A DNA stretch of 41,070 nucleotides from Candidatus Eiseniibacteriota bacterium (lineage in GTDB: Bacteria > Eisenbacteria > RBG-16-71-46 > JACRLI01). The stretch is taken from NCBI GenBank assembly GCA_025351485.1, contig JANXVU010000095.1, forward strand, positions 1-41,070, given 5' to 3'. The notes below the pieces were generated by a model. The model was not told where the DNA came from and made no database searches. It saw only the letters and a program-made list of their open reading frames with translations. Below are positions 345-36,148 of the stretch, in pieces. The translations under genes and the position numbers were made by a program. Position 1 is the stretch's first letter, and every line of letters begins with the position of its first letter.

Positions 345-2315
345 ATGCCGCTCGTGAATCCATTTCTTTCCGATGCCGCCACCCGCGCCGTCCAGATTGC
401 CCGTCGGGCGTTGTCCCGGCCGGGGTCGCCTTTCCGTGAGCTTCCGGAGACTTTGGTGGTGGTGGACGTGGCGCGCCAGACCGCCTGCCTGCTCCAGGGC
501 GGCCAGGGCCAGGCCTTCTACCCGGTCTCCACCGCCGAGGCGGGCGTGGGCGGCGAGGGGGGATCGCTGCGCACCCCGCCCGGATGGCACCGCGTACACG
601 AACGGATCGGGGAGGGCGCGCCCGCGCGCATGAGCTTTTCCAGCCGCATGGCGACCGGCAAGGAGTGGGATGGCGGTGCCACCCCGGACGATCTCATTCT
701 GGGCCGGATCCTGACGCTCGAGGGCCTGGAAGAGGGCGTCAACCGCGGGCCGGGCTGCGATTCGCTCCAACGTTACATCTATCTCCACGGCACCAACCAC
801 GAAGACACGATCGGACTGCCGGCTTCCCATGGATGCGTCCGGCTGCGGATCCCCGACGTGATCGACCTGTTCGGCCGGCTGAAGGCGGGGGACGCCGTGC
901 TTATCGCCGAGGGGCCGGTGCCGGCGCTGCCCTGGCCCGGACCGGGAAGGTTCCACTACGCCGGCATCGGCGGGAGCGGCATGAGCGCGCTGGCCCAATA
1001 CCAGGTGATGCGCGGCGGCCGCGCCAGCGGCAGCGACCGCGCATTTGATCGCGGCGAGCGCCCCGTGTCGCGCTCCCAGCTGGAGGTGCTCGGGATCGTC
1101 ATCACGGCACAGGACGGCTCGGGGGTCCAAGGGGACTGTGCCCATCTGGTGGTGTCCACCGCGGTGGAAGCGGACGTGCCCGACTTTGCGGAGGCCGCGC
1201 GCCTGGGTGTGCCCACCCTGCACCGCTCCGAGGCGCTGGCCCGGTTTGTCCGCCACAGCCGTTCCATCGCGGTCACCGGCACCAGCGGCAAGTCCACCGT
1301 GGTCGCCATGATCTTTGAAATCCTGCGTGGCGCCGGACGCGACCCTTCCGTGATCACGGGCGGGGAACTGCGCATGCTCCAGGCCGGGGGCATGTGGGGC
1401 AACGCGTTCGCGGGCTCTTCCGACCTGCTGGTGGTGGAAGCCGACGAAAGCGACGGCTCCGTGGTGCGTTACCGCCCCGCGGTGGGCGTGGCGCTTAATC
1501 TGCAGAAGGATCACAAGGAAATGAGCGTGGTGTCCGAGATGTTCCGGAAGTTCCGCTCCCAGGCCCGGGAGGGCTTCGTGTGCGGCGAGGCGGAAAACCT
1601 GGCCGGGTTCGCCGCCGGCGCCACGGTATTCGGGTTCGGCCCCGGGGCCGCGGTGCGCGGCGCCTCGGTGGAGCTCGGACCCGACGGCTCGGACTTCGAG
1701 GCGGGCGGGGTGAGGTTCCAATTGCCTGTTCCGGGACGCCACAACGTGGAGAATGCGCTGGCTGCGATCGCCGCTTGCGCCGCGGTGGGGGTCGCCTACC
1801 GCGAGATGATCGCGCCGCTCGCGGCCTTCCAGGGCGTGGCGCGCCGATTCCAGGTGCTGGGGAGCGCCGGTGGCGTGGAAGTGGTGGATGACTTCGCCCA
1901 CAACCCGGCCAAGCTGGAGGCCGCGATCCGGACCGCTCAACGAAGGGCCGCCAGGGTGCTGGCCGTCTATCAACCGCATGGCTATGGGCCCACCCGCTTC
2001 CTGTGGCAGGACTTCGTGCAGACCTTTTCCTCCACGCTGCGCCCGGAGGATCGCCTGTGGCTGCTGGAGGTGTTCTACGCCGGAGGCACGGCCACGCGGG
2101 ACTTCTCATCGGCGGACATCGCGGCCGACATCGCCGCCCGGGGAACGCGCTGCCGGTTCGCCGCCTCCCGCGACGAACTGGCGTCCTCTCTGGCCGCCGA
2201 GGCGCGGCCCGGGGACCTTATCCTGGTCATGGGGGCGCGCGATCCGTCGCTCACCGAACTGGCGCGGCGCATCCTGGCGGGCCTGCCCGGCGCCTCTCCC
2301 TCCAATCCCGCCTGA
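345..2315 (+). CDS. L,D-transpeptidase / MurC-Mpl-type ligase fusion
   Basis: A 656-residue protein joins two peptidoglycan enzymes in one frame. Residues about 35-190 are a YkuD L,D-transpeptidase domain with H149 in 'YLHGTNH' and the catalytic S161-H-G-C164-V-R motif. Residues about 203-656 are a Mur ligase: 'GIGGSGM' (207-213, UDP-sugar binding Rossmann fold), P-loop 'GTSGKST' (312-318), 'EADESDG' (365-371), R465-H-N, 'DDFAHNP' (515-521) and 'YQPHGYGPTR' (542-551). The motifs are closest to MurC/Mpl, which ligate L-Ala or recycled tripeptide to UDP-MurNAc. No signal peptide is seen, so the transpeptidase half would be cytoplasmic, which is odd because YkuD enzymes usually act in the periplasm. 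Start: the frame is open from ATG 273, but residues 1-24 of that form look unconserved, so ATG 345 is preferred. GTG 354, just after a -10-like CAGAAT, is another option. Confidence 0.88.
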   Translation: MPLVNPFLSDAATRAVQIARRALSRPGSPFRELPETLVVVDVARQTACLLQGGQGQAFYPVSTAEAGVGGEGGSLRTPPGWHRVHERIGEGAPARMSFSSRMATGKEWDGGATPDDLILGRILTLEGLEEGVNRGPGCDSLQRYIYLHGTNHEDTIGLPASHGCVRLRIPDVIDLFGRLKAGDAVLIAEGPVPALPWPGPGRFHYAGIGGSGMSALAQYQVMRGGRASGSDRAFDRGERPVSRSQLEVLGIVITAQDGSGVQGDCAHLVVSTAVEADVPDFAEAARLGVPTLHRSEALARFVRHSRSIAVTGTSGKSTVVAMIFEILRGAGRDPSVITGGELRMLQAGGMWGNAFAGSSDLLVVEADESDGSVVRYRPAVGVALNLQKDHKEMSVVSEMFRKFRSQAREGFVCGEAENLAGFAAGATVFGFGPGAAVRGASVELGPDGSDFEAGGVRFQLPVPGRHNVENALAAIAACAAVGVAYREMIAPLAAFQGVARRFQVLGSAGGVEVVDDFAHNPAKLEAAIRTAQRRAARVLAVYQPHGYGPTRFLWQDFVQTFSSTLRPEDRLWLLEVFYAGGTATRDFSSADIAADIAARGTRCRFAASRDELASSLAAEARPGDLILVMGARDPSLTELARRILAGLPGASPSNPA

Positions 2316-3017: not shown

Positions 3018-3101
3018 GTGCTCGACATTGTCTACGTCTCATTGACCATTCTCTTCTTTGCAGCATGCGTGGCATTCGTCCGCCGCTGCGCCCGCTTGTA
3101 G
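3018..3101 (+). CDS. 27-residue membrane peptide leading the kdp operon
   Basis: GTG start with a strong GGGGAGG six bases upstream; the product is 27 residues ending at TAG 3101. It starts 'MLDIVYVSLTILFF', continues through a hydrophobic stretch to about residue 21 and ends in a basic tail with two Arg-Arg-Cys/Ala-Arg elements, so it is a single-span peptide with a positive C-terminus. Short peptides of this look occur upstream of kdpF in other bacteria (recollection, not checked here). Its stop codon is embedded in the Shine-Dalgarno of kdpF (TAGGAG), which implies translational coupling. The role is unknown; stabilising the Kdp complex, as KdpF does, is a guess. Confidence 0.75.
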   Translation: MLDIVYVSLTILFFAACVAFVRRCARL

Positions 3102-3110
3102 GAGAGCGTC

Positions 3111-3197
3111 ATGGCCGATGCAATCTGGGTGGGGGCGCTGGTGGTGCTGCTGGTGGTGTACCTGCTGTATGCGCTGCTGAAGCCGGAGCGGTTCTAG
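3111..3197 (+). CDS. kdpF: KdpF, small subunit of the K+-transporting ATPase
   Basis: A 28-residue single-span membrane peptide, with hydrophobic 'WVGALVVLLVVYLLYALL' followed by the typical KdpF ending 'KPERF'. KdpF sits in the inner membrane against KdpA and stabilises the KdpFABC complex. AGGAG lies 8 nt upstream of the ATG and overlaps the stop of the preceding peptide gene. Its own stop (3195-3197) overlaps the Shine-Dalgarno of kdpA, so the three starts appear coupled. Length and ending match the family. Confidence 0.9.
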   Translation: MADAIWVGALVVLLVVYLLYALLKPERF

Positions 3198-3208
3198 GAG
3201 ACGGAATC

Positions 3209-4996
3209 ATGACCACAAATGGAGTGCTGCAGGTGCTGGTGTTCTTCGGCCTGGTACTGCTGCTCACCCGGCCGGTCGGCACGTGGATGGCACGGGTGTT
3301 CGACGGTGAACGCACCTGGCTCCATCCCGCGCTTGCGCCGGTGGAGCGGCTCAGCTATCGGATCTGCCGCGTGGACCCGCGGGAAGACATGAAGTGGACC
3401 ACCTATGCCGGGGCCCTGATCGCCTTCAGCCTGGCCGGGATGCTTCTGAGCTACGCGCTTCTCCGGCTCCAGGGCATCCTGCCTCTCAACCCTCAAGGCT
3501 TAGGGGCGAAGGAGATGACGCCCGACCTGGCGTTTAACACGGCCGCGTCATTTACCACCAACACCAACTGGCAGTCGTACGTCCCGGAGACCACGGTCAG
3601 TTATTTTTCCAACATGGTCAGCCTGGCGGCGCACAACTGGATGTCGGCTTGCTCGGGGATCGCGGTGGCCTTGGCACTCACCCGCGGCCTGGCCCGTCGG
3701 CAGTCCGGACGGATCGGCAACTTCTGGGTGGATGTGACCCGCTCGATGCTGTATCTGCTCCTGCCGATCTCGATCGTGGGGGCTCTGCTGATGGTGTGGC
3801 AGGGCGTGCCCCAGAACTTTGATCCCTCGACCGTCGCCCACACGGTGGAGGGCGGGACCCAGACCATCGCGCAGGGCCCGGTGGCTTCCCAGGAGATCAT
3901 CAAGGAACTGGGGACCAACGGTGGCGGGTTTTTCAACGCCAATTCCGCGCACCCCTACGAGAATCCCACGCCGATCACCAACCTGTTCCAAGTGCTGTGC
4001 ATCTTCCTGATCCCGGCCGGGCTCACCTCCACCTTTGGCCGGATGGTTGGCAACACTCGCCAGGGCTGGACGCTGTTTGCGGCCATGAGCGTGATGTTCC
4101 TGCTGGGCGTGTTCACCCTCATGCACTACGAGCAGCTCGGCAATCCCAACGTGGCGCGGCTGGGCGTGGTTTCCCATGCGGGGCCGAGGCAGCCGGGCGG
4201 GAACATGGAGGGGAAGGAGACCCGGTTCGGCATCGCCAACTCGGCGCTGTTTGCCACCGTCACCACGGACGCTTCGTGCGGGGCGGTGAATTCCATGCAC
4301 GACAGCTTCACTCCGATCGGCGGCCTGGTTCCGCTGGCCAACATCCTTACTGGCGAGGTGATCTTCGGCGGCGTCGGAGCGGGGCTCTACGGAATGTTGA
4401 TGTACGCGATCCTCGCTGTGTTCATCGCAGGGCTCATGGTGGGACGGACGCCCGAATACCTGGGCAAGAAGATCGAGCAGCACGAGGTCAAGATGGCGAT
4501 GCTGCCGGTGCTGGTGCTGGCGGCGAGCATCCTCGGCTTCAGCGCCCTTTCAGCCAATCTGGGACTTCCCGCACAGAGCGCCATGAATCGCGTGGGCGCG
4601 GATGGGCCGTTCCTGGGCTCCACATTCAACAACCTCAACAACGGCGGCCCCCACGGCCTCACCGAGACGTTCTATGCGTTCGCGTCGGCCACCGGCAACA
4701 ACGGCTCGGCCTTTGCCGGGATCACCGCCAATACGCCGTATTACAACTTGATGCTGGCCCTGGCCATGCTGGCCGGCCGTTTCCTGATGATCATCCCGCT
4801 GTTGGCCATCGCCGGCAGCTTGTCGGCCAAGAAGAGCGTGCCGGCTTCGGCCGGGACGTTCCCGACGGACTCGCCCACGTTCGTGGTCCTTCTGATCGGC
4901 GTCGTGGTGATCGTCGGAGCGCTCACTTTCTTTCCGGCGCTCGCACTGGGTCCGGTGGTGGAGCACCTTCAAATGCGCTCCGGCGTCCTTTACTAG
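3209..4996 (+). CDS. kdpA: KdpA, K+-channel-like subunit
   Basis: A 595-residue polytopic inner-membrane protein that selects and binds K+ for the Kdp P-type ATPase. Selectivity-filter-like loops of all four pseudo-repeats can be seen: 'SFTTNTNWQSY' (residues 114-124), 'GTNGGGFFNANSAHPYEN' (235-252), 'TTDASCGAVNSMHDSF' (about 352) and 'ATGNNGSAFAG' near residue 500. Length is normal for KdpA (about 560-600). ATG 3209 is chosen over further upstream starts in the same frame because AGGAG lies 8 nt before it and the first helix 'VLQVLVFFGLVLLL' begins at once. kdpB follows after 48 bp. Confidence 0.97.
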   Translation: MTTNGVLQVLVFFGLVLLLTRPVGTWMARVFDGERTWLHPALAPVERLSYRICRVDPREDMKWTTYAGALIAFSLAGMLLSYALLRLQGILPLNPQGLGAKEMTPDLAFNTAASFTTNTNWQSYVPETTVSYFSNMVSLAAHNWMSACSGIAVALALTRGLARRQSGRIGNFWVDVTRSMLYLLLPISIVGALLMVWQGVPQNFDPSTVAHTVEGGTQTIAQGPVASQEIIKELGTNGGGFFNANSAHPYENPTPITNLFQVLCIFLIPAGLTSTFGRMVGNTRQGWTLFAAMSVMFLLGVFTLMHYEQLGNPNVARLGVVSHAGPRQPGGNMEGKETRFGIANSALFATVTTDASCGAVNSMHDSFTPIGGLVPLANILTGEVIFGGVGAGLYGMLMYAILAVFIAGLMVGRTPEYLGKKIEQHEVKMAMLPVLVLAASILGFSALSANLGLPAQSAMNRVGADGPFLGSTFNNLNNGGPHGLTETFYAFASATGNNGSAFAGITANTPYYNLMLALAMLAGRFLMIIPLLAIAGSLSAKKSVPASAGTFPTDSPTFVVLLIGVVVIVGALTFFPALALGPVVEHLQMRSGVLY

Positions 4997-5044
4997 CGAA
5001 GCGGGCACGAGCGCGAGTTTGCCGGCCTGCAGAAGGATGAATTC

Positions 5045-7189
<2,145 letters not shown>

Positions 7190-7204
7190 GGAGGAAGACA
7201 AACC

Positions 7205-7879
7205 ATGTTTCGTCAGATCGTGAGCGCGGTGGCCATGGTGGTCGTGATGACCGTCCTTACCGGAGTCCTGTTTCCGCTGGGAATCACGGCCATGGCCCAG
7301 GTGTTCTTTCCCTTCCAGGCGCACGGCAGCCTGCTCAAGGCAGGCGGCCGCGTGGTCGGATCCAGGCTGATCGGCCAGAACTTCTCCCGGGCGGCGTACT
7401 TTCATTCCCGGCCATCGGCGGCCGGAAACGGCTACGACGCCTCGAACTCCGGAGGGACCAACCTGGGCCCCACCAGCCTCAAGCTGATCCGCGGGGTCCA
7501 TTTGAAACGCAAGGATGGCAGCGACGATCCGGGGAATTTCGACGGCATCGCCGACCTGGCCTCGGCCTACCGCGCGGAGAACGGCCTGGACTCCACGGCG
7601 TTGTTGCCTGCCGATGCCGTCGCCCGTTCGCCCAGCGGACTCGACCCCGAGATCAGCCCGGAAAACGCGCAGCTGCAATGCGCGCGGGTGGCCCGCGCAC
7701 GGGGAGTCGGTGCCGAACTGGTGCGTCGCCTGGTCCAGGCACACACCCGGGGCCGGCAGCTGGGCCTTTTGGGCGAGCCCCGGGTGAACGTCCTGGAACT
7801 CAATCTGGAGCTGGATCGCGGGATCCGTTCCCCACGCGTCGCGGCCCCGGCCGTTCGGAATTCGAAAGGATCCCTATGA
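7205..7879 (+). CDS. kdpC: KdpC subunit of the K+-transporting ATPase
   Basis: A 224-residue protein with one N-terminal membrane span (about residues 6-30, 'VVVMTVLTGVLFPLGITAMA') and a periplasmic domain. Family signatures are present: 'GSRLIGQNF', 'YFHSRPSAAGNGYDASNSGG', 'NLGPTS' and, near the C-terminus, 'GLDPEISPENAQLQ' and 'GEPRVNVLELNLEL'. KdpC is the chaperone-like subunit that raises ATP affinity of the complex. GAGGAGG lies 9 nt before the ATG. The stop overlaps the next gene's start (ATGA, 7876-7879), so the porin gene is part of the same operon. Confidence 0.96.
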   Translation: MFRQIVSAVAMVVVMTVLTGVLFPLGITAMAQVFFPFQAHGSLLKAGGRVVGSRLIGQNFSRAAYFHSRPSAAGNGYDASNSGGTNLGPTSLKLIRGVHLKRKDGSDDPGNFDGIADLASAYRAENGLDSTALLPADAVARSPSGLDPEISPENAQLQCARVARARGVGAELVRRLVQAHTRGRQLGLLGEPRVNVLELNLELDRGIRSPRVAAPAVRNSKGSL

Positions 7880-9228
7880 ACAGGTGGCTGCTGGTGGTGA
7901 CGCTGCTGGCGCTGAATTCGGTGGCATACGCCCCGCTCGTCTCCGCCCAAACCGCTCCGGACTCGGCCAAGCCGGCGCCGGCCACGGAACCACCGGCGCC
8001 GTTTGCATTCGCCGACTTTTCGTGGGCGCCCGGGAATGCTGGCGCCAGCGAGAGGCCGCTCACCATGGGACCTTTCATCGGCGAGCTCCGGGTGGATGAC
8101 GTGTATCACTACAGTCTCGCACACCCCGCGGACAACACCATCTCGGGCTCCAGCGAAGTGTTCCGGCATGGGGAATTCCAGCTGACCCAGTTGGGAATCG
8201 GCGGAGACCTGCTCTACAAGCACGCCATGGCCCGCCTCATGACCCAGTTCGGGTTGTATTCCCAGACCACCGCGCGCAACGACGCCAGCCCCGGCGCGGG
8301 GCAGTGGCGGCTCGACGACGCCTACCGCTACATTTCCGAGGCGTACGGCGGCTACCACTTCGATGCGCTGAGCGGCGTGAACGTGCAGGCCGGAATTTTC
8401 ATGTCCTACATCGGCCTGTGGAGCTACTACAACGCCGACAACTGGACCTACCAACCGTCGTACGTCTCGTCCAACACGCCCTGGTTCTTCAACGGCATGC
8501 GGGTGCAGATCTACACCAGTGACAAGCTGAAGATCGAGCCATGGATCGTGAACGGCTGGCAGTCGTATGGGCGATTCAACAAGTCCATGGGGACCGGCGG
8601 CCAGATCCTGTGGCGTCCCACCGGATCGATTTCCGTGGTCGGAAACCAGTACTACGGCAAGGACGCCTACGGAGTCCCGGACCGCAAGCGCTTTCACACC
8701 GACGACAGTTTCATGGCGAAGTACTACGATCATCCGGACCGGACCATTACTCGGGCCGCATTTTCGTTCACCGCGGACGCGGGTTGCGAGTCCGGCGGCG
8801 GGGTGACGGCTTCGTCCCAGTACTTTCTGGGGTTCATGGCCTACAACCGCCTGTGGTTCAACCACGACCGCCTCGGCCTGACCGTGGGGGGCGGGGCCAT
8901 CACCAACCCGGGCCGCTACCTGGTGCTCCTGCCCCCGGTCAACGGGGCAACGGCGTTTTCCGGGACGCCGTATTTCACGGAGAACCCCGGCGACCCCTAC
9001 AAGGCGTGGGACTTCCAGGTCACAGGTGACCTCATGCCGAGCCCCTTCGTCACCTTCCGGCTGGAGTTCAATCACCGGCACGCCAATGTGCCATACTTCT
9101 CCGGATCGGGCGGAGTCACTCCTCCCGGAGGAAACCAGGGCGCTCCCGGATCGCTGGTGGAGGGCTGGGCCCCCGACCTGGTGCACGACGAAGACCGGCT
9201 GTCGGCAGCCATGCTGATCAAGCTCTAG
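7876..9228 (+). CDS. Outer-membrane beta-barrel porin in the kdp operon (OmpL / Bbp2-like)
   Basis: A 450-residue exported protein with a signal peptide in about residues 1-26 ('LLVVTLLALNSVAYAPLVSA') and then a Pro/Ala-rich linker. The rest has amphipathic strands with aromatic girdles, such as 'GGYHFDALSGVNVQAGIF', 'WTYQPSYVSSNTPWFFNG' and 'LKIEPWIVNGWQSYGRF'. This pattern is typical of the putative OmpL-like beta-barrel porin-2 family. ATG 7876 overlaps the kdpC stop and has AAAGGA upstream; the open frame runs further back inside kdpC but without sense. Position between kdpC and kdpD suggests a channel supplying K+ to the periplasm when K+ is scarce (inference). Confidence 0.88.
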   Translation: MNRWLLVVTLLALNSVAYAPLVSAQTAPDSAKPAPATEPPAPFAFADFSWAPGNAGASERPLTMGPFIGELRVDDVYHYSLAHPADNTISGSSEVFRHGEFQLTQLGIGGDLLYKHAMARLMTQFGLYSQTTARNDASPGAGQWRLDDAYRYISEAYGGYHFDALSGVNVQAGIFMSYIGLWSYYNADNWTYQPSYVSSNTPWFFNGMRVQIYTSDKLKIEPWIVNGWQSYGRFNKSMGTGGQILWRPTGSISVVGNQYYGKDAYGVPDRKRFHTDDSFMAKYYDHPDRTITRAAFSFTADAGCESGGGVTASSQYFLGFMAYNRLWFNHDRLGLTVGGGAITNPGRYLVLLPPVNGATAFSGTPYFTENPGDPYKAWDFQVTGDLMPSPFVTFRLEFNHRHANVPYFSGSGGVTPPGGNQGAPGSLVEGWAPDLVHDEDRLSAAMLIKL

Positions 9229-9282
9229 GAATCATCGCGGCCCCGATCTGCGCCCTTCGGCGCCGCCACCCAGGAGGACTCC

Positions 9283-11994
9283 GTGACCGAACGCAGGCCG
9301 GATCCCGACGAGCTGCTTCGTCGGGTGCAGGCCGAAGAGCTCCGCGAGCGGCGCGGCAAGCTCACCGTGTTCTTCGGGGCAGCCCCCGGCGTGGGCAAGA
9401 CCTACGCGATGCTCCGGGAGGCAATCCGCGAACAGGAACTGGGCTCGGACGTGCTGGTGGGGGTCCTGGAAACCCACGGGCGGGCCGAGACCGAGGCGCT
9501 GCTCCAGGGGCTCGCGTTGCTGCCCAGGCGACCGGTCGATCACCGCGGAGTCACGCTGAGCGAATTCGACCTGGACGGGGCGCTGGCCCGGCATCCCCGG
9601 CTGATCCTGGTGGACGAGCTGGCCCACACCAACGCCGAGGGCTCGCGGCACCCCAAGCGCTGGCAGGACGTGGCGGAGCTCCTGGACGCCGGGATCAACG
9701 TCCACACCACACTGAATGTCCAGCACCTCGAGAGCCTGAGCGAGATCATCGCCGTGGGCATGGGACTCGTGGTGCGCGAGACGGTTCCGGACTCCGTGCT
9801 GGAAATGGCCGACGAGGTTCGGCTGATCGACCTTCCGCCTGGCGAGCTTTTGGAGCGGCTCGCCGAAGGCCGGATCTATATCCCCGAGCAGGCGGAGCGG
9901 GCGCGCGACAACTTCTTCAGGAAGGAAAACCTGCACGCGCTCCGCGAGCTGGCCCTGCGCCAGACCGCCGAGCGCGTGGGCACCCAGGCCCGGCAATACC
10001 AGGAGCACCGCGGCCTCAAGCGGACCTGGACGGTCTCCGAGCGGCTCCTGGTGTGTCTCAGCGAGAGCCCCGATGCGGACAAGGTGCTGTGGGCCGCCTC
10101 CGGCCTGGTGATGCGCATGCACGTCCCCTGGGCGGTGCTGCACGTGGAGTCCCCGGGAAATGTGCGGCTTCCTGAGGCGCGCCGCCAGGAATTGGTGAAG
10201 AGGCTGCGGCATGCCGAACAGCTGGGGGCGGAGGTATCGACGGTGAGCGGGATGAACGCCGCCGACGAAATCCTGAAATTCGCTTCGGAGTGGGGGGCGA
10301 CGCGCATCGTGGTGGGTCCCCCCGGACGCCGCCTGCTGCCTTGGAGGATCACCGGTTCGGTGGTTGCCGATCTGATGGATCGCGCGGTCGAGCAGGACAT
10401 CTGGGTCACCCGGAACCCGCGCTCGCCCGCCCCCCGCAGGTTTAGGCTGGAGTTCCAGGCGCGCCGCGGACGCGGCACGCCGGCGCAGTACGTGGTTGCC
10501 GTCGCCACCATGGCCGCGGTCACCGCCATCACCTCGCTCCTGTTCGGCCGGGGTCGTGCGGCCGACGTCGTGATGCTCTACCTGCTGGGTGTGGCGCTGG
10601 TGGCCATGCGCTGCGGATACGGGCCATCCCTGCTGGCGGCATTGCTGGGCGTGCTGGCGTTCGACTTCTTCTTCGTCCCTCCTTACCTCAGCTTCGCGTT
10701 CTCCGACCTGGGCCATGTGATCACTTTCGGCATCCTGCTGTTCGTGGCGCTGGTGATCAGCAACCTGACCGACAGGATCCGCGCCCAGGTCGAGGCCTCC
10801 CGCGCGCGCGAAAAACGCATCGCCACCCAGTACGCGCTGAGCCGCGAACTCGCCCGCACCACCGGGCGGGACGGGCTCATCGCCGTCTCCATAGTCCACA
10901 TCGAGGACACATTCGACTGCCGGGCCATGCTCCTGCTTCCGGACGCGGTCGGCCGGCTGGCAGTGGCCGGGCCCTCCCGGTCCGAAGTGTTGCCGTCGCA
11001 CGACGAGGGCATCGTGCAATGGGTGTGGCAGAACCGGCGCGAGGCTGGACTGGCGACCGATACTCTTCCAGGGTCCGAAGGCCTCTACCTCGTGGTCTCA
11101 GGGACCCAGGGCGCGATGGGAGTGCTGTGCGTCATTCCGAAAGACCGCCACCAGTTCGAGGACACCGAGCAGCGGCGGCTCCTGGACACGTTCGTGTCGC
11201 TTACCGCCATTGCGCTCGAGCGCGCGCGCCTGGCGGAGGAGTCTCAGTTAACCCGCGGCGAGCTCGAAAAGGAAGGCCTGCGAAACACTCTGCTGGCCTC
11301 GATCTCCCACGACCTGCGCACACCCATCGCCGTGATCATGGGCGCGGCCAGCGCCCTGATGGACGACTCCGACCGGCTGGATGCGGGCGCCCGCATGGAC
11401 CTGGTCCAAACGGTCTACGGCCAGTCGGTCCGCCTGAACCGGCTGGTGAGGGACCTGCTGGACATGACCCGCCTGGAGTCGGGGGGCGTTCAATTGACCT
11501 TGGAATGGCACTCGGTGGAGGAAATCGTGGGAGCCTCGCTGAACCGGCTGGAAGACCTCCTGGGCTCGCGCGAGGTGCGCGTGGAGCTCGAGCCCGGCCT
11601 GCCGCTGATCCGCGTGGACGGCGTTCTGATCGGGCAACTGCTGGTCAACCTGCTGGAGAACGCGGTCAAGTATTCGCCGCGGGATGCGCCTATCGAGATC
11701 TCCGCCTCGAAACCGGGCGATGAGGTGTTGCTGGAGGTCGCCGACCGAGGTCCGGGAATTCCGGAAGCGGATCTGGACCGGGTGTTCGACAAGTTCTATC
11801 GTGGTTCGCAGGAGCGATTGCCGGAAGGCGTGGGACTGGGGCTCGCGATCTGCCGCGCCATCGCCGTGGCGCACGGAGGCCGGATGCTGGCCCTGAACCG
11901 CCCGGGTGGAGGGGCTTCGTTCCGTTGCGCAGTGCCCGCCGGGGAACTGTCCCCGGGGTTCGACCCTCCCGCTTCGGAAACCAGCGAGGAGTGA
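9283..11994 (+). CDS. kdpD: KdpD, K+/turgor sensor histidine kinase
   Basis: A 903-residue sensor. The order is: KdpD N-terminal domain with Walker A 'GAAPGVGKT' (32-40) and 'DELAHTN' (about 110); universal-stress-like domain (about 250-380); four membrane spans (about 400-500, 'AALLGVLAFDFFFVPPYL' and neighbours); GAF-like region; HisKA with H676 in 'ISHDLRTP'; and HATPase_c with 'NLLENAVKYSP', 'DRGPGIP' and 'GVGLGLAICRAIA'. It autophosphorylates and signals to KdpE. GTG 9283 is preceded by AGGAGG. The TGA overlaps the kdpE ATG (TGATG). Length is full, and no broken motif is seen. Confidence 0.97.
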   Translation: MTERRPDPDELLRRVQAEELRERRGKLTVFFGAAPGVGKTYAMLREAIREQELGSDVLVGVLETHGRAETEALLQGLALLPRRPVDHRGVTLSEFDLDGALARHPRLILVDELAHTNAEGSRHPKRWQDVAELLDAGINVHTTLNVQHLESLSEIIAVGMGLVVRETVPDSVLEMADEVRLIDLPPGELLERLAEGRIYIPEQAERARDNFFRKENLHALRELALRQTAERVGTQARQYQEHRGLKRTWTVSERLLVCLSESPDADKVLWAASGLVMRMHVPWAVLHVESPGNVRLPEARRQELVKRLRHAEQLGAEVSTVSGMNAADEILKFASEWGATRIVVGPPGRRLLPWRITGSVVADLMDRAVEQDIWVTRNPRSPAPRRFRLEFQARRGRGTPAQYVVAVATMAAVTAITSLLFGRGRAADVVMLYLLGVALVAMRCGYGPSLLAALLGVLAFDFFFVPPYLSFAFSDLGHVITFGILLFVALVISNLTDRIRAQVEASRAREKRIATQYALSRELARTTGRDGLIAVSIVHIEDTFDCRAMLLLPDAVGRLAVAGPSRSEVLPSHDEGIVQWVWQNRREAGLATDTLPGSEGLYLVVSGTQGAMGVLCVIPKDRHQFEDTEQRRLLDTFVSLTAIALERARLAEESQLTRGELEKEGLRNTLLASISHDLRTPIAVIMGAASALMDDSDRLDAGARMDLVQTVYGQSVRLNRLVRDLLDMTRLESGGVQLTLEWHSVEEIVGASLNRLEDLLGSREVRVELEPGLPLIRVDGVLIGQLLVNLLENAVKYSPRDAPIEISASKPGDEVLLEVADRGPGIPEADLDRVFDKFYRGSQERLPEGVGLGLAICRAIAVAHGGRMLALNRPGGGASFRCAVPAGELSPGFDPPASETSEE

Positions 11995-12710
11995 TGCCCA
12001 AGTCCCCTGAGGAAGCGGCCCACGAGCCCCTGGTTCTCATCGTTGAGGACGAGCTCCCGATGATGCGCTTTTTGCGCACCTCGCTCCAGAGCCACGGCTA
12101 TCGGGTTGGTGAGGCCCGCACAGGTAGCGAGGCCATCGCCCTGGCCGGCACGCAGATTCCCGATCTCATTATCCTGGATCTGGGTCTGCCGGACATGGAT
12201 GGGCTGGCGGTGACGCGGCGCCTCCGGGAGTGGAGCGCCACGCCGATCATCGTCGTGTCCGCGCGTGGTCAGGAGCGGGACAAGATTGCCGCGCTGGACG
12301 CGGGCGCGGACGACTACCTGACCAAGCCCTTCAGCGTCCCAGAACTCCTGGCTCGTCTGAGGGTGGCGCTCCGGCACCGGGACAAGACCGGTGCGGACAA
12401 GCCGGAGCCCGTATTCGAATCCGGCCGGCTCCGGGTGGACATTGCACACCGCCAGGTCTGGGTGGACGGCGCCGAGATCCGGCTGACGCCGATCGAATAC
12501 CGGCTGTTGCTCACCCTGGTTCACTTCGCGGGCCGGGTGCTCACGCACCGGCAGCTGCTGCGGGAAGGCTGGGGGCCGGCGTACGAGGGCCAGTCGCAAT
12601 ACCTGCGTATATACATGGCACGCCTCCGACACAAGATCGAGGCGGATCCCTCGCGCCCCCGCCTGCTGCTGACCGAGCCCGGAGTGGGCTACCGCCTGCG
12701 GGATTCCTGA
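11994..12710 (+). CDS. kdpE: KdpE, response regulator
   Basis: A 238-residue OmpR/PhoB-type regulator. In the receiver domain (residues about 13-125) the acidic pocket is E18/D19, the phosphoacceptor is D62 in 'IILDLGLPDMDG', and K111 is in 'LTKPF'. The winged-helix DNA-binding domain (about 140-236) has 'IRLTPIEYRLLLTLV' and the end 'LLTEPGVGYRLRD'. It activates kdpFABC when phosphorylated by KdpD. The ATG overlaps the kdpD stop by one base and GAGGAG lies just upstream inside kdpD. A candidate target site is the T-rich box at 2885-2893. Confidence 0.97.
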   Translation: MPKSPEEAAHEPLVLIVEDELPMMRFLRTSLQSHGYRVGEARTGSEAIALAGTQIPDLIILDLGLPDMDGLAVTRRLREWSATPIIVVSARGQERDKIAALDAGADDYLTKPFSVPELLARLRVALRHRDKTGADKPEPVFESGRLRVDIAHRQVWVDGAEIRLTPIEYRLLLTLVHFAGRVLTHRQLLREGWGPAYEGQSQYLRIYMARLRHKIEADPSRPRLLLTEPGVGYRLRDS

Positions 12711-22298: not shown

Positions 22299-24491
22299 CT
22301 AGAAGTGCTGCGTCGCCAGGAGCGCCCAACGGTAGACGCGGTAGTCCTGGAATCCGCTCCCCAGATAGATTCCCTGTCCATTCTGGAACAGCGGAATATC
22401 CTTGGCGGCAAAGTCCACGGCCACGAACTCCTGGTAGCCCAACCGCCCCACGATTTCCATGTCGCCCTTCAGCCAGTACCGGCCTTCCACTTGCGCATCG
22501 TGGCGCCGGTAGCGGGTGTCGGGGACGTCCTGGGCGGTGCCCGTGCCGTTGCTCAGGATGTACCGCGACACGTCCTTGCTGAAGCCATAGTCGGCGATGA
22601 TCGAAAGCTTCTTCGGCACCACCTTCCAGTTGGCCTGGAGAAACGCGTAGTCGTTGCGGTCGCGGAGGTCGGCCTTCCAGTTGTTCTTGGGCAGGGTGTC
22701 CACCGGCGCCGCGTTGTTGGACTCGTGGGACGTCTGGATATTCCTGATCCAGCCCTGCGAATATCCGAAGACGAGATCGAGCGCCTCGCCCGGATGGCAG
22801 CTGATCTCCGACGTGAGCTGCTCGTCCTTCTGGCTGGTGACGCCGTACCGGGTGTCGGGGTAATCGTTCAGCGCGTAGTCATAGCCCAGCGACACATCGA
22901 ACATGTCGCTGATCTCATAGGCGAAGTTCAGATTGCGCAGGTCCTGGTTGCGGTTGGCCACGTCAAAGCGCCGCAGCCCGGCCTGTTCCACCTGGACTCC
23001 CTTTTCGTCCCTGTAGTCTTCCGTGATGAACTCGTCCAACTCGCGCTTGGCGTGCCGCAGCCGGCCCTCCACGCTGAAATTGTCGAAGAGACTGGCCCGG
23101 GCGCGGACCATGTAGGCGTTCTCCGCGTCGCTCTCCACTTCCCGCAGGGTGTGCTCGCGCTTCTGGTGCTCAAGGGTACCCGAGAGATGCAGGGAAGTCA
23201 GAACATCTCCACCTTGGAGTTCGAAGGCGGACATCGGATCAAAGTCGACGTCCGCGCCCAACACCGTCTGCTTGTTTCCGAAAGGATCGCTCTCGATCGG
23301 GATCGCTTCCCATACCTGGTCCATCCGCACGTAGCCCTTGAACTCGTGCACCGGGGTCTTGTTGTCGTATTTCTGCTCCCGGAAACGCAGGGTTCCGCGC
23401 AGGCCGCGAACGGTGGAACTCGTGAGCCGGGTGTCCATCGTGAGATTCGTGGCCTTCCCGCCGGTGCTGCTCGCCGGCAGGGAGTCCACTGAAGCCGATG
23501 GGGTGGCCTTCAGTATCGCCGTGTTCAGGGTCTGCGGCAGCCACGGGTCATCCTGGGTTCCCTGGCTGTAGTACAGGGAGGCGGTCAGCATGTTGTCCCG
23601 GGGAAGATCCAGTCCCAGGGAAAGCTGCCCGTAGACCATCTTGTTGTCGGGTGCCGTCGACATCTGCGCAGTGGCCGTGCCGTCGCCCGGACTGTAGGCG
23701 GACGCGTACGTCGTGTCCGTCAACCGCTTGGGATTGTCCCAGCGCGTAGCCTTGATGCGGTTGGTGAACGCGGATACGCCGCCGCCGGCCACGATCTTGA
23801 CCTGGTCCCGCGCATAGGTCATCGAAGCGTCCGCCTCGATGGTCCGCTGGTCGATCGGCTCCGGCAACTCGATCGCGCTGGCAAACCCAAGGGGGGCGCC
23901 GAGCGGCTTGTGGCCGCTCCGCATCCGGCTCAGGCCCGAGATCTCGAACTGGCATCCCTCGGCGGGACGCCCGCGCAGCCGAGCTTTCGTCTCGTTGGTC
24001 TGGACGTCCAGCGCCACGCCCCGGGAATTGTTGATGAGGTCCTGCATGACCGAAGGATACTTCCCGGGAGTCCTCTGGTTGGCGAGCTGGATGATGGTGT
24101 CGGGAAGCGAGAAGACCCCCGGCTGGAGTTCGGCGTACGGGGTCCTGCCGATCTGGCTGTACAGGTGCGGGACTCCCTGGTACTTGAGGTCAAACTTCCA
24201 CTGCGCGCCGTGGGCGACCGACAGTCCAACCAACTGGTCCTTGTGCACCGGGTTGGAGCCGTACACGGTGAAGAAGTCGTGCTTTCCCCACTGCCTCAGC
24301 AGAAAGCTGTCCAGGAAGGGGCCCTTGGCAGGGTCCGTGTATTCCCGGAATTTGGCCTCGGGAGCCGACTGGTCCCACCACTGCGATCCATACGTGACAT
24401 CGCCTTCCGAATCAGCCCGTGAAGCCGCGACCCAACCACCACAACACACGGTCGCGAGCAGCAGGGCGAAACATACGTTTTTCGTCTGCAT
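22299..24491 (-). CDS. MtrB/PioB-family outer-membrane beta-barrel
   Basis: A 730-residue exported barrel; the signal peptide is in about residues 1-26. MtrB/PioB proteins form the outer-membrane sheath that holds a decaheme cytochrome so that electrons can cross. Family signatures: 'FREYTDPAKGPFLDSFLL' near the N-terminus, then 'MRSGHKPLGAPLGFASAIEL', 'PEPIDQRTIEADASMTYA', 'TRWDNPKRLTDTTY', 'LRRFDVANRNQDLRN' and 'DYALNDYPDTRYGVTS'. It ends in a strand with terminal Phe, the usual barrel-assembly signal. The mature part lacks the N-terminal C-x-x-C of Shewanella MtrB and so is nearer PioB. The gene starts 9 bp after the cytochrome stop, with GGGGG before the ATG, so the two are co-transcribed and their products probably form one complex. 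Confidence 0.93.
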   Translation of the reverse strand: MQTKNVCFALLLATVCCGGWVAASRADSEGDVTYGSQWWDQSAPEAKFREYTDPAKGPFLDSFLLRQWGKHDFFTVYGSNPVHKDQLVGLSVAHGAQWKFDLKYQGVPHLYSQIGRTPYAELQPGVFSLPDTIIQLANQRTPGKYPSVMQDLINNSRGVALDVQTNETKARLRGRPAEGCQFEISGLSRMRSGHKPLGAPLGFASAIELPEPIDQRTIEADASMTYARDQVKIVAGGGVSAFTNRIKATRWDNPKRLTDTTYASAYSPGDGTATAQMSTAPDNKMVYGQLSLGLDLPRDNMLTASLYYSQGTQDDPWLPQTLNTAILKATPSASVDSLPASSTGGKATNLTMDTRLTSSTVRGLRGTLRFREQKYDNKTPVHEFKGYVRMDQVWEAIPIESDPFGNKQTVLGADVDFDPMSAFELQGGDVLTSLHLSGTLEHQKREHTLREVESDAENAYMVRARASLFDNFSVEGRLRHAKRELDEFITEDYRDEKGVQVEQAGLRRFDVANRNQDLRNLNFAYEISDMFDVSLGYDYALNDYPDTRYGVTSQKDEQLTSEISCHPGEALDLVFGYSQGWIRNIQTSHESNNAAPVDTLPKNNWKADLRDRNDYAFLQANWKVVPKKLSIIADYGFSKDVSRYILSNGTGTAQDVPDTRYRRHDAQVEGRYWLKGDMEIVGRLGYQEFVAVDFAAKDIPLFQNGQGIYLGSGFQDYRVYRWALLATQHF

Positions 24492-24500
24492 GATATCCCC

Positions 24501-25448
24501 CTACCTCAAGAAGAACTTGCCAGCCGGGTGATTTGACCCATGGACCTGGCTGTGGCAGTTCGAACACGACCGGTTGAAAAGGCGGTTGCTGACCAGGTCC
24601 GGCTTGTCATAAAGGGTGCTCGGGTGGCGCGTGGCGATGTGGCAGCGCTGGCACAGGTACGGGCGCTTCTCAGCCAGCACCTTCTCGTTGTTTGCTCCAT
24701 GAGGCTCGTGGCAGCTCATGCAATTCTCGCGAACCGGCGCGTGCTCCCACAGGAACGGGCCCCGCTTATCCGCGTGGCACTTGTAGCACAGCTCGTTGAC
24801 CGTGTTGGCCTTGAGCTGGTGCGGCGCCGGGGAGCCGTGGGGGTTATGGCAGCTCACGCAGGTCATGCCGCCTTCGGTGATCGGCATGTGGCCCGAGCGG
24901 GCCATGCGGGCACGCTTGTTCTTGTGGCACTGCAGGCACAGTTCGCTGGTGCTGGCTTGCTTCAGCAGCGCCACCCTGCCGGCATCCTTGGGAGAGTGGA
25001 TGCTGTGGCATTGCACGCAGGCCACGTCGGCCTGGGCGTGGAAGCCCTGCTTCCAGTAGAACTGCTGCCCGGTCTTGTGGCAGCCGAGGCACGCCTTGTT
25101 GGCCTCCGCGGCCGGCAACTTGCTCGGCACCAGGAGCGAGGCGCGTCCCTCTTCCTTGGTCGGCGCTCCCGCGGCATCGGAGCCGCTTTCCGCCTCCACG
25201 TGGATCGAGGCCGGCCCATGGCAGGTCTCGCAACCGATCTTCTGGCCGACCAGCGCCGAATCCTTTTCGGCCCGGCCGTGCCCGCCGGCCTTGAACTGCT
25301 GGACAGCTGCTCCATGACAGTCATCGCAGATTTCCGAGCCGACGAATTTTCCCACCCGGTCCGACTTGGGTGGGGCCGGCTTTGCCGCCAGGACGGCCAG
25401 CCCGGCTAGCGCGGAAACCGCCAGGAGTAAGGTGAGGCCACGTTTCAT
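24501..25448 (-). CDS. Decaheme c-type cytochrome (MtrA/DmsE-like)
   Basis: A 315-residue exported cytochrome. An N-terminal hydrophobic segment (about 4-22) is a signal peptide. Ten C-x-x-C-H heme sites begin at residues 41, 73, 120, 144, 171, 197, 221, 243, 266 and 295; no site is broken. Many distal histidines are present ('GGHGRA', 'HMPITEGG', 'NPHGS', 'EPHGANN'). Length and heme number match the periplasmic MtrA/DmsE/PioA group that sits inside an MtrB/PioB barrel. Start: ATG 25448 is chosen because GGAGG lies 6 nt upstream; an in-frame ATG 14 codons earlier has no such site. Expected role: electron transfer between periplasm and cell exterior (metal reduction or iron oxidation). Confidence 0.93.
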   Translation of the reverse strand: MKRGLTLLLAVSALAGLAVLAAKPAPPKSDRVGKFVGSEICDDCHGAAVQQFKAGGHGRAEKDSALVGQKIGCETCHGPASIHVEAESGSDAAGAPTKEEGRASLLVPSKLPAAEANKACLGCHKTGQQFYWKQGFHAQADVACVQCHSIHSPKDAGRVALLKQASTSELCLQCHKNKRARMARSGHMPITEGGMTCVSCHNPHGSPAPHQLKANTVNELCYKCHADKRGPFLWEHAPVRENCMSCHEPHGANNEKVLAEKRPYLCQRCHIATRHPSTLYDKPDLVSNRLFNRSCSNCHSQVHGSNHPAGKFFLR

Positions 25449-25559
25449 CGACGCCTCCGTGTGTCGGGTCGCTGATTTTCGAGGAGCCATCCTGCTGCTC
25501 CGGTGGGGATCCCTGCGGGTCGGTAGGGCGCCCTTGGCGCTCGAACTGCAAGGTACTCA

Positions 25560-31401: not shown

Positions 31402-32793
31402 TTGGGCCAGGCTACCACTCGCATCACCGCCCGATCCTTTCGACCCGGCTCTGCCGACCTGAACAGGCTGGCCGCGCTGGCGCTGCCCATCGTGGTGGTG
31501 CAGGTCGGCATGATGACCATGGGAGTGGTTGATTCCATCCTGCTCGGGCACCTTTCCGCGGCGGATCTGGCCGCCGGCGCGCTGGGGAACATGTACTTCT
31601 TCGGGATGGCCGGCCTGGGGATGGGCACGCTGTACGCCCTGGATCCGATCGTCGCGCAGGCGGTGGGGGCGGGCGAGCAGGAAGGCGTGGCGCGGGGCCT
31701 GCAGCGCGGACTGATGCTCGCGGTGATGATCAGCGCCGTGACGTCGCTGGGATTCCTGCCGGCCGGGCACGTGTTCGTCCTGCTCGGCCAACCGGCCGAA
31801 GTGGTGCCGCGGGCCGCCGGCTATGCGCTGGCATCCATCCCCGGCGTGCTGCCGTTCTTCGGTTTCATCGTGCTTCGGCAGACGCTCCAGGCGATGGGCC
31901 GCCTGAGGCCGATCGTCATCACCATCCTGCTCTCCAACCTGCTCAACTTCGCCCTCGCCTGGGCGCTGATCTTTGGCCACCTCGGATCGCCCGCCATGGG
32001 CGCGGCCGGCGCGGCATGGGCTTCCTCGCTGGCCCGCTGGGGCATGATGCTCGGACTCCTTGGACTGTCCTGGCGCGATCTCGCGCCCCATCTGGACCAC
32101 CTTCGGTCCGAGGTCCTGGAATTCGGGCCCCTCTTGAAGATGCTCTGGATCGGCGTGCCGATCGGGCTGCAGTTCCAGCTCGAGATGGGCGTGTTCTCCG
32201 TGGTGGCGCTGCTGATGGGCCGCATCGGCACCCAGGCCATCGCCGCGCACCAGATCGCCATCAACATCGCTTCGCTCACCTTCATGGTGCCGCTGGGAGT
32301 TTCGGGCGCAGCCGCCGTGCTGGTCGGCCAGGCGGTGGGAGCGGGCGACATCGCCGGTGCGCGCCGCGGGGCGCTGGCGGCCTTGCTGGCCGGTGCGGGT
32401 TTCATGCTGGTCTCGGGATTGACGCTGACGGTGCTGCCCGGCCTTCTTGCGGGGGTCTACACGAGGGATCCCGCGGTGCTCTCGGTCGCCATTACGCTCA
32501 TTCCCATCGCCGGCGTGTTCCAGGTGTTCGACGGGCTGCAGGTGGTTTCGATCGGCGTGCTGCGCGGGGTGGGGGACACGCGCACCCCGCTGCTCGTGAA
32601 TATCCTGGGTTTTTGGCTGATAGGGCTGCCGGTGAGCCTGACTCTGGCCTTCCGGGCGGGACTGGGGGCCCCGGGACTGTGGTGGGGGCTGGTGGTCGGG
32701 TTGATCCTCGTGGCGGGATTCCTGGTGTTCCGGGTGGCCCAGCGATTGTCGCGGGGGATCGGCCGGATTGTCGTGGACCAGCCGGCGGCCTGA
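31402..32793 (+). CDS. MATE family efflux transporter (NorM-like)
   Basis: A 463-residue inner-membrane protein with about twelve hydrophobic helices in two similar halves, as in MATE cation/drug antiporters. Typical stretches are 'LALPIVVVQVGMMTMGVVDS', 'GLGMGTLYALDPIVAQAVGA', 'SIPGVLPFFGFIVLRQTLQA' and, in the second half, 'AAHQIAINIASLTFMVPLG' and 'IGVLRGVGDTRTPLLVNI'. It would export drugs or metabolites using Na+ or H+. Start: the frame is open far upstream, but TTG 31402 has an AAAGAG nearby and leaves about 26 residues before the first helix, as expected for the family; GTG 31336 and ATG 31309 are less likely. It is divergent from the hydrolase gene. Confidence 0.9.
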   Translation: MGQATTRITARSFRPGSADLNRLAALALPIVVVQVGMMTMGVVDSILLGHLSAADLAAGALGNMYFFGMAGLGMGTLYALDPIVAQAVGAGEQEGVARGLQRGLMLAVMISAVTSLGFLPAGHVFVLLGQPAEVVPRAAGYALASIPGVLPFFGFIVLRQTLQAMGRLRPIVITILLSNLLNFALAWALIFGHLGSPAMGAAGAAWASSLARWGMMLGLLGLSWRDLAPHLDHLRSEVLEFGPLLKMLWIGVPIGLQFQLEMGVFSVVALLMGRIGTQAIAAHQIAINIASLTFMVPLGVSGAAAVLVGQAVGAGDIAGARRGALAALLAGAGFMLVSGLTLTVLPGLLAGVYTRDPAVLSVAITLIPIAGVFQVFDGLQVVSIGVLRGVGDTRTPLLVNILGFWLIGLPVSLTLAFRAGLGAPGLWWGLVVGLILVAGFLVFRVAQRLSRGIGRIVVDQPAA

Positions 32794-32826
32794 TCCCGGT
32801 TGTGCGTGTACGCCGGGCGCGCGGGA

Positions 32827-32835
32827 TGCTAAAAT
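32827..32835 (+). promoter_or_regulatory. Extended -10 promoter of the TPR-CHAT/kinase cassette
   Basis: TGC-TAAAAT (TAAAAT 32830-32835) lies about 90 bp before ATG 32924. The only TTG-type -35 (TTGTGC, 32800-32805) is 24 bp away. The same arrangement with a 24-bp gap occurs before the DUF2911 gene. Confidence 0.5.
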
Positions 32836-32923
32836 CCATCTTCCAATCCTGGGTTGCCACGGTGCGGGATGTCCATGCCGCCGCGACTGGTTTCTCCCCC
32901 GTTCTCCCTTCCCTGAGGTGACG

Positions 32924-35900
32924 ATGGCTCGCCTGCTGACACCCATGCTTGCAGCGGCCCTGTCGATAACCCTGTTGTCCTCATTCCCCCCCGACCCCAG
33001 GGCGGGCGGATCTCCAGGCGCTCGCCTTGCGGCACGGTTCCGGGAGGTGGACAGCCTCTTGTCCCTGGAGCGCTCGGCCGCGGCGGACAGCCTGGCCACG
33101 CTGGCCCTGGCCGAGGCCGAACAGGCGGATCCTCCGGATTCGGCGATGATCGCCGGGGCGATGATGCGCGTCGGCAAGGCGCGCTATGCCCGCCGCATGC
33201 TGAAGGACTCGGTGGCCTATACCATGCTCACCGGCAGCCTGGCCATCCAGTCGCGGCTGTCACACCCCGATTACGCGGAACTGGCCGAAACCCACACCAG
33301 GCTCGGCCGCGTTCTGGCGGAGACCGATCGCGCCGACTCGGCGCTCATCCAATACGCCGCGGCCCTTGCCGCCGCGGAAGCCGGCGGGCTCGCGAACGAT
33401 TCCACGCGGGCGGTGCTCCTGTGGAACAAGGGAACCGCGCTGCGGACTCTCAGCCGGCCACGGGAGGCCGAGGCCACGCTCCTGGATGCCATCGCCCGGA
33501 TGGAACGCTGGGGAGGTCCGCAGCACACGGGCTTGCCGCTCTTGCTGAACGTGCTCTCCGGCGCCTACGTCGACCTGGGCCGGTTCGCCGAGGCGCGCGC
33601 GGCCCTGGAGCGGGCCATCGGGATCGTGGAGCGCACGCAGGGAGGCGAATCTGCGGATCTGATTCCGCTTGTGAACCGGCAGGCGACCATCGAACACCGG
33701 GCCGGCGACACGGCGCGCTCGATCGAGCTGCTCGAGCGCGCGCTCGCGATCTCGGCGAAAGTCTATGGCGCCGAGGACGTGCACTCCTTCCCACTCCGCT
33801 ACAACACCGCGCTCAGGCTGATGGACTTCGGCGACTACAAAGGCGCCTCGCGCTGGTTCCGCGATGCGCTCCGCATCGGCGAAGCTCACTACGGGAAGGG
33901 TCATATCAGCACCGAACAGACCCGCACCATGCTGGGATACGCCGAAGTCTCGGCCGGCGACACGGCCGAAGCGCTGCGCGACCTGGACCAGGCCCAGGCC
34001 GAGCTCGAGAAACGCCCGCTCGACCCGAACCAGATGCTGGTCTACTGCTACCGCAGCCGCGCCGCGGTGCTGCTCATGCGCGGCGACGTCCAGGGGGCTC
34101 GCCGGGTGGCGAACCGGGGGCTCGCGATCCTGGCCACCAGCCCGTCCCCGCTGCTCGAGGCCCAGATGGGTCTCTACGAACAGAAGGTCGAGGCCGCCCG
34201 GCTCGCGAGCGACCTCTCGGGCCTCGACAGCACCAACGCCCAGATGGCGGCGCTATTCGACACTCCCGAGAGCCGGGGCCTGGAAACGTACATGGAGTAC
34301 CTGTGCCTGCGTGGGCGCAGCGAGGCGGCGCTGGGGCGCGTGGACTCGGCGTGGGTGCACCTCCTGGCCGCGGAACAGATCGAACGGCAGCGACTGGAGC
34401 GCAACATCCGGGCGTTGCCCGATGCGCGCGCGCTCGAGTTCTCGAGCCTGAATGCCGCGCCGCTGGACTTCCTGATCCAGTTCGCGTCCGGGCGCGGGCC
34501 CTCGGCCGACGCCGTCGCCTGGGACCGCGTGATCCGCTGGCGCGGCAGCGTCCACGACGAGATGGCACGCCGGCGCGCCCCGGAGGTGGCAGCCGGGGAT
34601 ACCGCACTTGCGGGCGCACACGGGCGCTGGACGACATCGGCGCAGCGGCTGGCACGCGCCGAGGTGGGAGGGGCGCCTCCCGCGTCGCTCGAGACGCTGC
34701 GCACCGAATCCGCGGAAGCCGAGCGGAGCTACGGTTCGCTGATCGCCTCGCACGGGATCGGCCCCGACACCGCCGCCGCTAGCCTGGAGCGGGTCCGGGG
34801 GGCGCTGGCGCCCAGGGAGGCGCTGGTCGGAATCGTCGAGAGCTTTGCTTCGGGCGACACGGCCCGCTTGATCGCGTTCGTCGTCCCTTCGGCGGCTGCC
34901 CCCGTGCAACGTATCGAACTTGGACCCACCCGCCGGATTCGCGACGCGATCGGGGCCTGGCGGGCGGCCATTTCCACGCCGCCCGAACCGGGCGCCGAAG
35001 CCGAGTCCGAGGCGGCTTGCCGAAAACTAGGCTCGATCGTGCGCTCGCTCACCTGGGGCCGCCTTGCGCCGGCCATCGGCGGCGCCGGGGCGGTGGCCTT
35101 GGTTCCGGATGGCCCGCTGGTGGATCTGCCCTGGGCGGCCTTGCCGGAAGGGAAGCGCGGCTACTGGGTGGAGCACGCTCCGCGCCTTCGCACGATCGAA
35201 TCGGAGCGCACGCTGCTCGAGCCCGATTCCCGCGTCGGCCGTGGAATGCTCGCGCTGGGAGACCCGGACTTCAATCGCAGGGGTGGCGCCCAGACGCCCG
35301 CGCCCACGATGTACGCGGCGGCCTTCCGGGGTCCGCTTGGAAATTGCGCGTCCGGGGAAGCGCTCAAGTTTCCGCCGCTGGCCGGAGCCCGGGCCGAAGC
35401 GATGGAGGTCGCGGACCGCTGGGACGCGGCGCATCCCCTGGAACGCGCGCGCCGGCTCCTGGGAGCCGACGCCGACCAACCGGCGTTCTGCCGCGACGCC
35501 CCGGGCCGCGAAGTGCTGCACATCGCCACCCATGGCGTGGTGTGGGGCGACTCGTGCGCCCCGGTCGCCGCGAATGGCCGGGGTGTGGGCGGGGTTGGAC
35601 GGATCGGGCCCGGCAGGGCCGCGCGCAAGCCGGGAGCAGGCAAGCCCGCCGGCCTGGCCGCGGCCGCGGCCCCCACGCCATCCGCATCGCCCATCGTCTC
35701 GCCCTGGATGGGGCGACGCGTGTGGCTGGCGCTGGCCGGGGCGAACCACGCCCGCGAGACGGCCCTTGAATCCGACGATGGACTGCTCACCGCGACCGAC
35801 ATCTCCCTGCTCGACCTGTCCGGCGTTCGGTGGGTGGTGCTTTCGGCCTGCCAGTCGGGGGTGGGGGATTCATGGCCCCGCGAGGGCGCGATCGGAATGC

Positions 35901-36133: not shown

Positions 36134-36148
36134 CACACCCCGGGAGGA

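Follow-up and report, generated by a model that had tools for sequence, protein, structure and literature searches.

A gene at one end of a contig of Candidatus Eiseniibacteriota joins, in a single frame, a predicted L,D-carboxypeptidase domain of the ElsL type to a predicted peptide ligase of the MurC superfamily. We consider it likely that the protein is a cytosolic bifunctional enzyme of peptidoglycan recycling, which would trim tetrapeptides to tripeptides and ligate these to UDP-MurNAc. What is new, as far as we could search, is the fusion itself, its occurrence in three phyla and a ligase clade without a name; each of the two activities is already known. The original prediction had known of no described enzyme with this order, and we too found no paper on a YkuD-Mur ligase fusion in a search of mainly open-access literature.

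The fused gene and its domains

The window, the whole stretch of 41,070 nt analysed here, is contig JANXVU010000095.1 of assembly GCA_025351485.1 (Candidatus Eiseniibacteriota bacterium, forward strand; GTDB lineage Bacteria; Eisenbacteria; RBG-16-71-46; JACRLI01), part of a draft genome that is 98.55% complete. Kinship and matching loci indicate that it is DNA of Candidatus Eisenbacteria (Eiseniibacteriota). The fused gene occupies positions 345–2315 of the plus strand, stop codon included, and its open frame encodes 656 amino acids. The contig end lies 344 bp away, genes for Kdp potassium transport come downstream, and no conserved neighbourhood was evident among the neighbours scanned. An in-frame ATG is also present at 273; since the G+C content at codon position 3 is only 50% in 273–344 against 71% in 345–460, the start at 345 seems the likelier one.

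Four Pfam domains were identified, all on the plus strand and all scoring above their curated cut-offs. The YkuD domain (PF03734, E 2.7e-17) spans 450–905 (residues 36–187), with its active site at 786–836, comprising His148 of an HGTN motif and Ser161-His-Gly-Cys164, the catalytic cysteine being encoded at 834–836. The ligase follows with an N-terminal, UDP-MurNAc-binding domain (PF01225, Mur_ligase; 951–1259, residues 203–305), a central ATP-binding domain (PF08245, Mur_ligase_M; 1272–1778, residues 310–478) and a C-terminal domain for binding an amino acid or peptide (PF02875, Mur_ligase_C; 1842–2240, residues 500–632). With these three domains, the P-loop TGTSGKST (residues 311–318, 1275–1298) and the Mg/ATP motifs, it has every feature of the Mur ligase superfamily. 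An intact SHGC active site, a full set of Mur motifs and a short linker in one frame are thus present as first described. Pfam revealed no peptidoglycan-binding or other extra domain. The absence of a signal peptide was also borne out, as far as hydropathy can tell: neither the signal peptide or membrane anchor of an exported L,D-transpeptidase nor any other membrane segment is apparent, the 19-residue maximum being 1.6 and lying within the ligase.

An AlphaFold2 model built from 45 relatives reached a mean pLDDT of 88.8 and a pTM of 0.72. Modelling of the interface, which had been proposed along with the original prediction, gave two confident domains separated by a flexible linker at residues 191–196 (915–932, plus strand; pLDDT <50), but at this pTM the predicted relative placement of the YkuD and ligase domains is left open.

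The fusion is conserved in three phyla

When the same domain order was sought in other genomes, a YkuD domain followed by a Mur ligase was found in a single frame at about 30 distinct loci in three phyla. Both parts lie in one frame in at least nine other genomes of the window's order (47 genomes of the phylum were searched), and a scan of GTDB genomes identified carriers, at about 58–71% identity, among Candidatus Eisenbacteria MAGs, Geothrix (Acidobacteriota) and Methyloceanibacter with other Hyphomicrobiaceae (Alphaproteobacteria). The Geothrix carriers are G. fermentans DSM 14018, G. campi, G. fuzhouensis, G. oryzisoli, G. terrae and G. paludis; isolates with the fusion include the first of these and Methyloceanibacter superfactus. 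The fused proteins fall in one clade of 37 (support 100/99), in which 30 members are fused, 5 are split and 2 are without the YkuD domain. Purifying selection was seen in every pair tested, with dN/dS of 0.12–0.38 for the YkuD half and 0.05–0.27 for the ligase half. The YkuD active site is present in all 28 fused proteins listed, and His148, Ser161, Gly163 and Cys164 are invariant in the 18 linked YkuD halves that were aligned.

The fusion is therefore real and not an assembly join. A frameshift, a misassembly or one dead half might be suspected from four loci at which the halves lie in different, adjoining frames (L059, L061, L062 and L187); L059 and L187 look like frameshifts, and L061 and L062 could be true splits. 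Conservation of the single frame across so many loci, phyla and isolates, together with selection on both halves and invariant catalytic residues, rules out such an artefact, to which we assign a negligible probability, and the concern that only this contig might carry the fusion, owing to a join close to position 930, falls away. We also looked for independent plasmid copies; no plasmid match covers 80% of the query, and the best matches listed comprise the ligase half only.

The YkuD half is related to ElsL

In an NCBIfam search the window's YkuD domain matched the ElsL model NF040925 at 131 bits over profile positions 5–161 of 164, whereas models of transpeptidases scored about 30 bits or less and only at the active-site end. 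ElsL was likewise the match for 18 of the 18 aligned YkuD halves. The score of 131 bits lies below the curated cut-off of 270 for this model, which is of the 'exception' type, so the domain is a relative of ElsL rather than a close orthologue. Taken alone, its predicted fold has B. subtilis YkuD as the top structural match; a related solved structure of ElsL was not found, only those of ordinary YkuD enzymes.

In Acinetobacter baumannii, ElsL (LdtK) is a YkuD enzyme of the cytosol that has no leader and serves as an L,D-carboxypeptidase of peptidoglycan recycling; the activity requires Cys138, and in the absence of ElsL tetrapeptides are ligated by Mpl (PMC8649774). The window's domain resembles it in being leaderless, matched end to end, equipped with the catalytic cysteine and histidine, and without a peptidoglycan-binding domain; the difference is that ElsL stands alone and the window's domain is part of a much longer fusion. 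A YkuD domain without a leader had been regarded as a puzzle; no leader is apparent here, and ElsL provides a described precedent. The published survey of ElsL kept homologues of 105–200 amino acids only (PMC8649774), so that any fusion would have been discarded, and the 656-residue protein falls outside this single-domain filter. The reported range of ElsL comprises mainly Gamma- and Betaproteobacteria and Verrucomicrobia, and neither Eisenbacteria nor Acidobacteria are named there.

The association of ElsL-type domains with the ligase can be followed in the order of Methyloceanibacter. A full-length ElsL match (135–141 bits) occurs in only 4 of its 121 genomes, and in all four it is fused to, or directly abuts, the ligase; all other YkuD proteins in the 121 genomes give partial matches of 42 bits at most. 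In some copies from Methyloceanibacter and its kin (L040, L044, L048, L049, L050, L055 and L187) the histidine of SHGC is replaced by Cys or Gln, a variation unusual for the family; these SCGC and SQGC variants retain the catalytic cysteine and the histidine of HGTN or HGSN.

By sequence, the ligase half belongs to neither MurC nor Mpl

Against the family models the ligase half scores 284.5 bits for MurC (TIGR01082, cut-off 335.1) and 116.8 bits for Mpl (TIGR01081, cut-off 388.7). In a tree of 94 ligases, a split with a support of 100/100 sets 69 relatives apart from 25 MurC. Two positions that are arginine in MurC (25/26 and 26/26 sequences) are Gly/Ala and Pro/Ser in 69/69 members of the clade; in the window these are Gly546 and Pro549 of the motif QPHGYGP (residues 543–549, 1971–1991, plus strand). 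The corresponding R377 and R380 of H. influenzae MurC are believed to bind the incoming L-alanine (PMC3060825). A peptide substrate would have no free alanine carboxylate to hold, and we infer that loss of the arginines fits peptide ligation. The P-loop residue that is His in Mpl and in 26/26 MurC is Ser in 69/69 clade members (Ser314 in the window), and the motif DDFAHN (residues 515–520, 1887–1904, plus strand) stands in place of DDY[GA]HH in MurC and DDFAHH in E. coli Mpl, two members of the clade having Tyr. The motifs on the UDP-MurNAc side, GIGGSGMS and GSD, are kept.

MurC is the nearest family, both by sequence and by predicted fold (TM 0.86–0.88 to H. influenzae MurC crystal structures, 0.66 to Mpl 3hn7), but the half falls below the MurC cut-off, has lost the arginines, groups in its own clade and has beside it, in the window's genome and in related ones, a separate ligase of the MurC type. 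With Mpl it would share the proposed reaction, the transfer of tripeptide to UDP-MurNAc, as well as the DDFAH motif and the lack of a MurC-type arginine pair; however, it is far below the Mpl cut-off, lacks the GTHGKT histidine and, when aligned with E. coli Mpl, lacks the (S/T)AFFDKRSK loop. No canonical Mpl above the TIGR01081 cut-off was found in any of the 29 genomes tested. The ligase half thus appears to represent a distinct clade, neither MurC nor Mpl by these sequence tests; of its initial description as MurC/Mpl-like, the complete Mur ligase stands and the family assignment needs refining. This would add a ligase clade that the MurC and Mpl models do not name, with members in Elusimicrobia, planctomycetes, Acidobacteria and Eisenbacteria. 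The MurC-Ddl fusion (NF011171) offers a precedent for a MurC-superfamily ligase joined to an enzyme acting on the same peptide, although its partner is a D-Ala-D-Ala ligase and its role lies in biosynthesis, not recycling. No Mpl fused to a carboxypeptidase was found in the literature searched.

Standalone members of the clade occur in other settings. In a rumen Elusimicrobium (L085:3542-7410) the ligase gene comes after those for DHDPS, a semialdehyde dehydrogenase and DapB, all in an operon-like arrangement, neighbours that would fit an mDAP-containing substrate. A standalone clade ligase is the sole MurC/Mpl-type match in a genome labelled Kuenenia (L091 in G086) and in a planctomycete (L111 in G088), and these two, unlike most other genomes searched, gave no MurD/E/F-type cross-matches. 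Peptidoglycan synthesis may be missing there, the bins may be incomplete, or the ligase may have another role.

Reciprocal occurrence of LdcA and the YkuD half

In E. coli, LdcA trims the tetrapeptide to the tripeptide, the substrate that Mpl joins to UDP-MurNAc; if the trimming step fails, the tetrapeptide is ligated by Mpl instead and a dead-end precursor results (PMC8649774, PMC13046382). Caulobacter has been found to be without both LdcA and Mpl (PMC13046382). The two steps are those proposed here for the fusion, the differences being that LdcA has a fold unrelated to YkuD and that the E. coli enzymes are encoded by two separate genes. LdcA (peptidase S66) was found in 0 of the 21 genomes of the window's order, the window's own included, and every ligase recovered whole in this order is either fused to a YkuD domain or lies next to one. 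Within the phylum, all 11 genomes with a standalone ligase (families f3 and f11) have LdcA; of the 15 genomes that lie outside the order and have no such ligase, only 1 does. Outside the phylum, one of 20 genomes with the fusion (Geothrix, Hyphomicrobiaceae and kin) has LdcA, that of G. oryzisoli, and S66 is present in both genomes of the fused clade that have lost the YkuD domain (L063, Armatimonadetes; L064, Ignavibacteriales). This reciprocal pattern is as expected if the YkuD half has replaced LdcA; a tree-aware test of it comprises only 1–2 independent pairs and hence has no power. Together with the kinship to ElsL, the pattern makes the predicted role of the YkuD half as a trimming L,D-carboxypeptidase well supported.

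Elusimicrobia with the ligase alone do not follow this pattern, as S66 was not found in the genomes searched. Their YkuD proteins were considered as separate ElsL enzymes and rejected for the loci examined, where they give partial matches only. With a ligase and neither LdcA nor, among these loci, an ElsL-type YkuD domain in these bacteria, trimming is not always paired with the ligase.

Of the wider pathway, the window's genome has a gene for a GH3 (NagZ-type) glycosidase. No AmpG was detectable in this nearly complete draft; the match is clear for Geothrix and Methyloceanibacter and weak for several relatives. A search for Amidase_2 (AmpD-type) proteins gave none in the window's genome and none in most relatives. 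These two gaps, which concern the import and the release of peptides, speak against a recycling role.

A model for coupled trimming and ligation, and its alternatives

We propose that the YkuD domain, as a cysteine L,D-carboxypeptidase, would cut off the last residue, D-Ala, of salvaged tetrapeptides (L-Ala-gamma-D-Glu-mDAP-D-Ala, either free or sugar-linked), that the fused ligase would load the resulting tripeptide onto UDP-MurNAc, and that MurF would then add D-Ala-D-Ala. Trimming at the site of ligation would avert the dead-end UDP-MurNAc-tetrapeptide. The tripeptide as substrate of the ligase, the two chemical activities and any advantage of coupling them are what we infer; channelling or physical coupling of the halves is speculation, for or against which the flexible linker does not speak. 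A cytosolic YkuD domain that works on recycled peptides before their re-ligation had been part of the original prediction and gains support here, trimming being the activity that fits an ElsL-type domain and the LdcA pattern. Its other element, a transpeptidase that exchanges the peptide, does not: no finding hints at a transferase function, and among characterised proteins the domain's nearest relative acts as a carboxypeptidase (PMC8649774). Tentatively, and as a possibility to which we would commit ourselves less readily, the ElsL-type carboxypeptidase may hand the tripeptide directly to a ligase of a third kind that is neither MurC nor Mpl and reached tripeptide ligation independently, the unit having spread between phyla and replaced LdcA plus Mpl.

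The closer resemblance of the ligase to MurC, in score and in predicted fold, and the lack of any other MurC-type match in G086 and G088 might suggest that the protein pairs a trimming YkuD domain with a second, paralogous or conditional MurC that adds free L-Ala (or Gly or Ser). We regard this as unlikely, given the replacement of both alanine-binding arginines and of the P-loop His by Ser throughout the clade and the separate MurC-type ligase in the window's genome and relatives; a trimming enzyme would also make little sense as a partner of MurC. That the YkuD half might instead be a cytosolic L,D-transpeptidase, replacing residue four in recovered peptides or in UDP-MurNAc-peptides and supplying the ligase with the product, would agree with the activity of most YkuD domains, with the intact active site and with the variable SHGC histidine in some relatives. 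This appears quite improbable to us, as the specific match is to a carboxypeptidase, the presence or absence of the domain tracks that of another carboxypeptidase, LdcA, and there is no sign of an acceptor amino acid.

A role outside recycling, in which the fusion makes or edits another gamma-linked peptide of a capsule, a storage polymer or a modified precursor, could account for a ligase clade that departs from all named Mur families, for planctomycete members that may be without the usual mur set and for the fact that neither AmpG nor AmpD was found in the window's genome. The retained UDP-MurNAc-side motifs, the DAP-pathway genes adjoining one Elusimicrobium relative and the reciprocity with LdcA, which points to peptidoglycan recycling, make it very improbable. 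If trimming and re-ligation by one enzyme is correct, the loop of peptide recycling would be closed in lineages that seemingly lack it, such as Alphaproteobacteria, and the fusion would suggest that the two steps can be coupled in one chain. Its presence in cultured Geothrix and Methyloceanibacter makes it open to direct testing.

Other genes in the window

Genes for potassium transport and sensing occupy 3065–12707 (plus strand). Read from their translations, they begin with a KdpA-type subunit (3065–4996) and a KdpB-type P-type ATPase (5045–7189); a BBP2 porin, a KdpD-type kinase and a response regulator, identified by Pfam, come after the KdpB-type gene. At 22302–25490 (minus strand) an MtrB/PioB-type outer-membrane porin adjoins a multihaem cytochrome (doubled CXXCH), which suggests a putative route of electron transfer across the outer membrane. 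At 32768–38407 (plus strand) the gene for a TPR-CHAT protease-like protein immediately precedes that for a TPR serine/threonine protein kinase, and the two may possibly form a functional pair.
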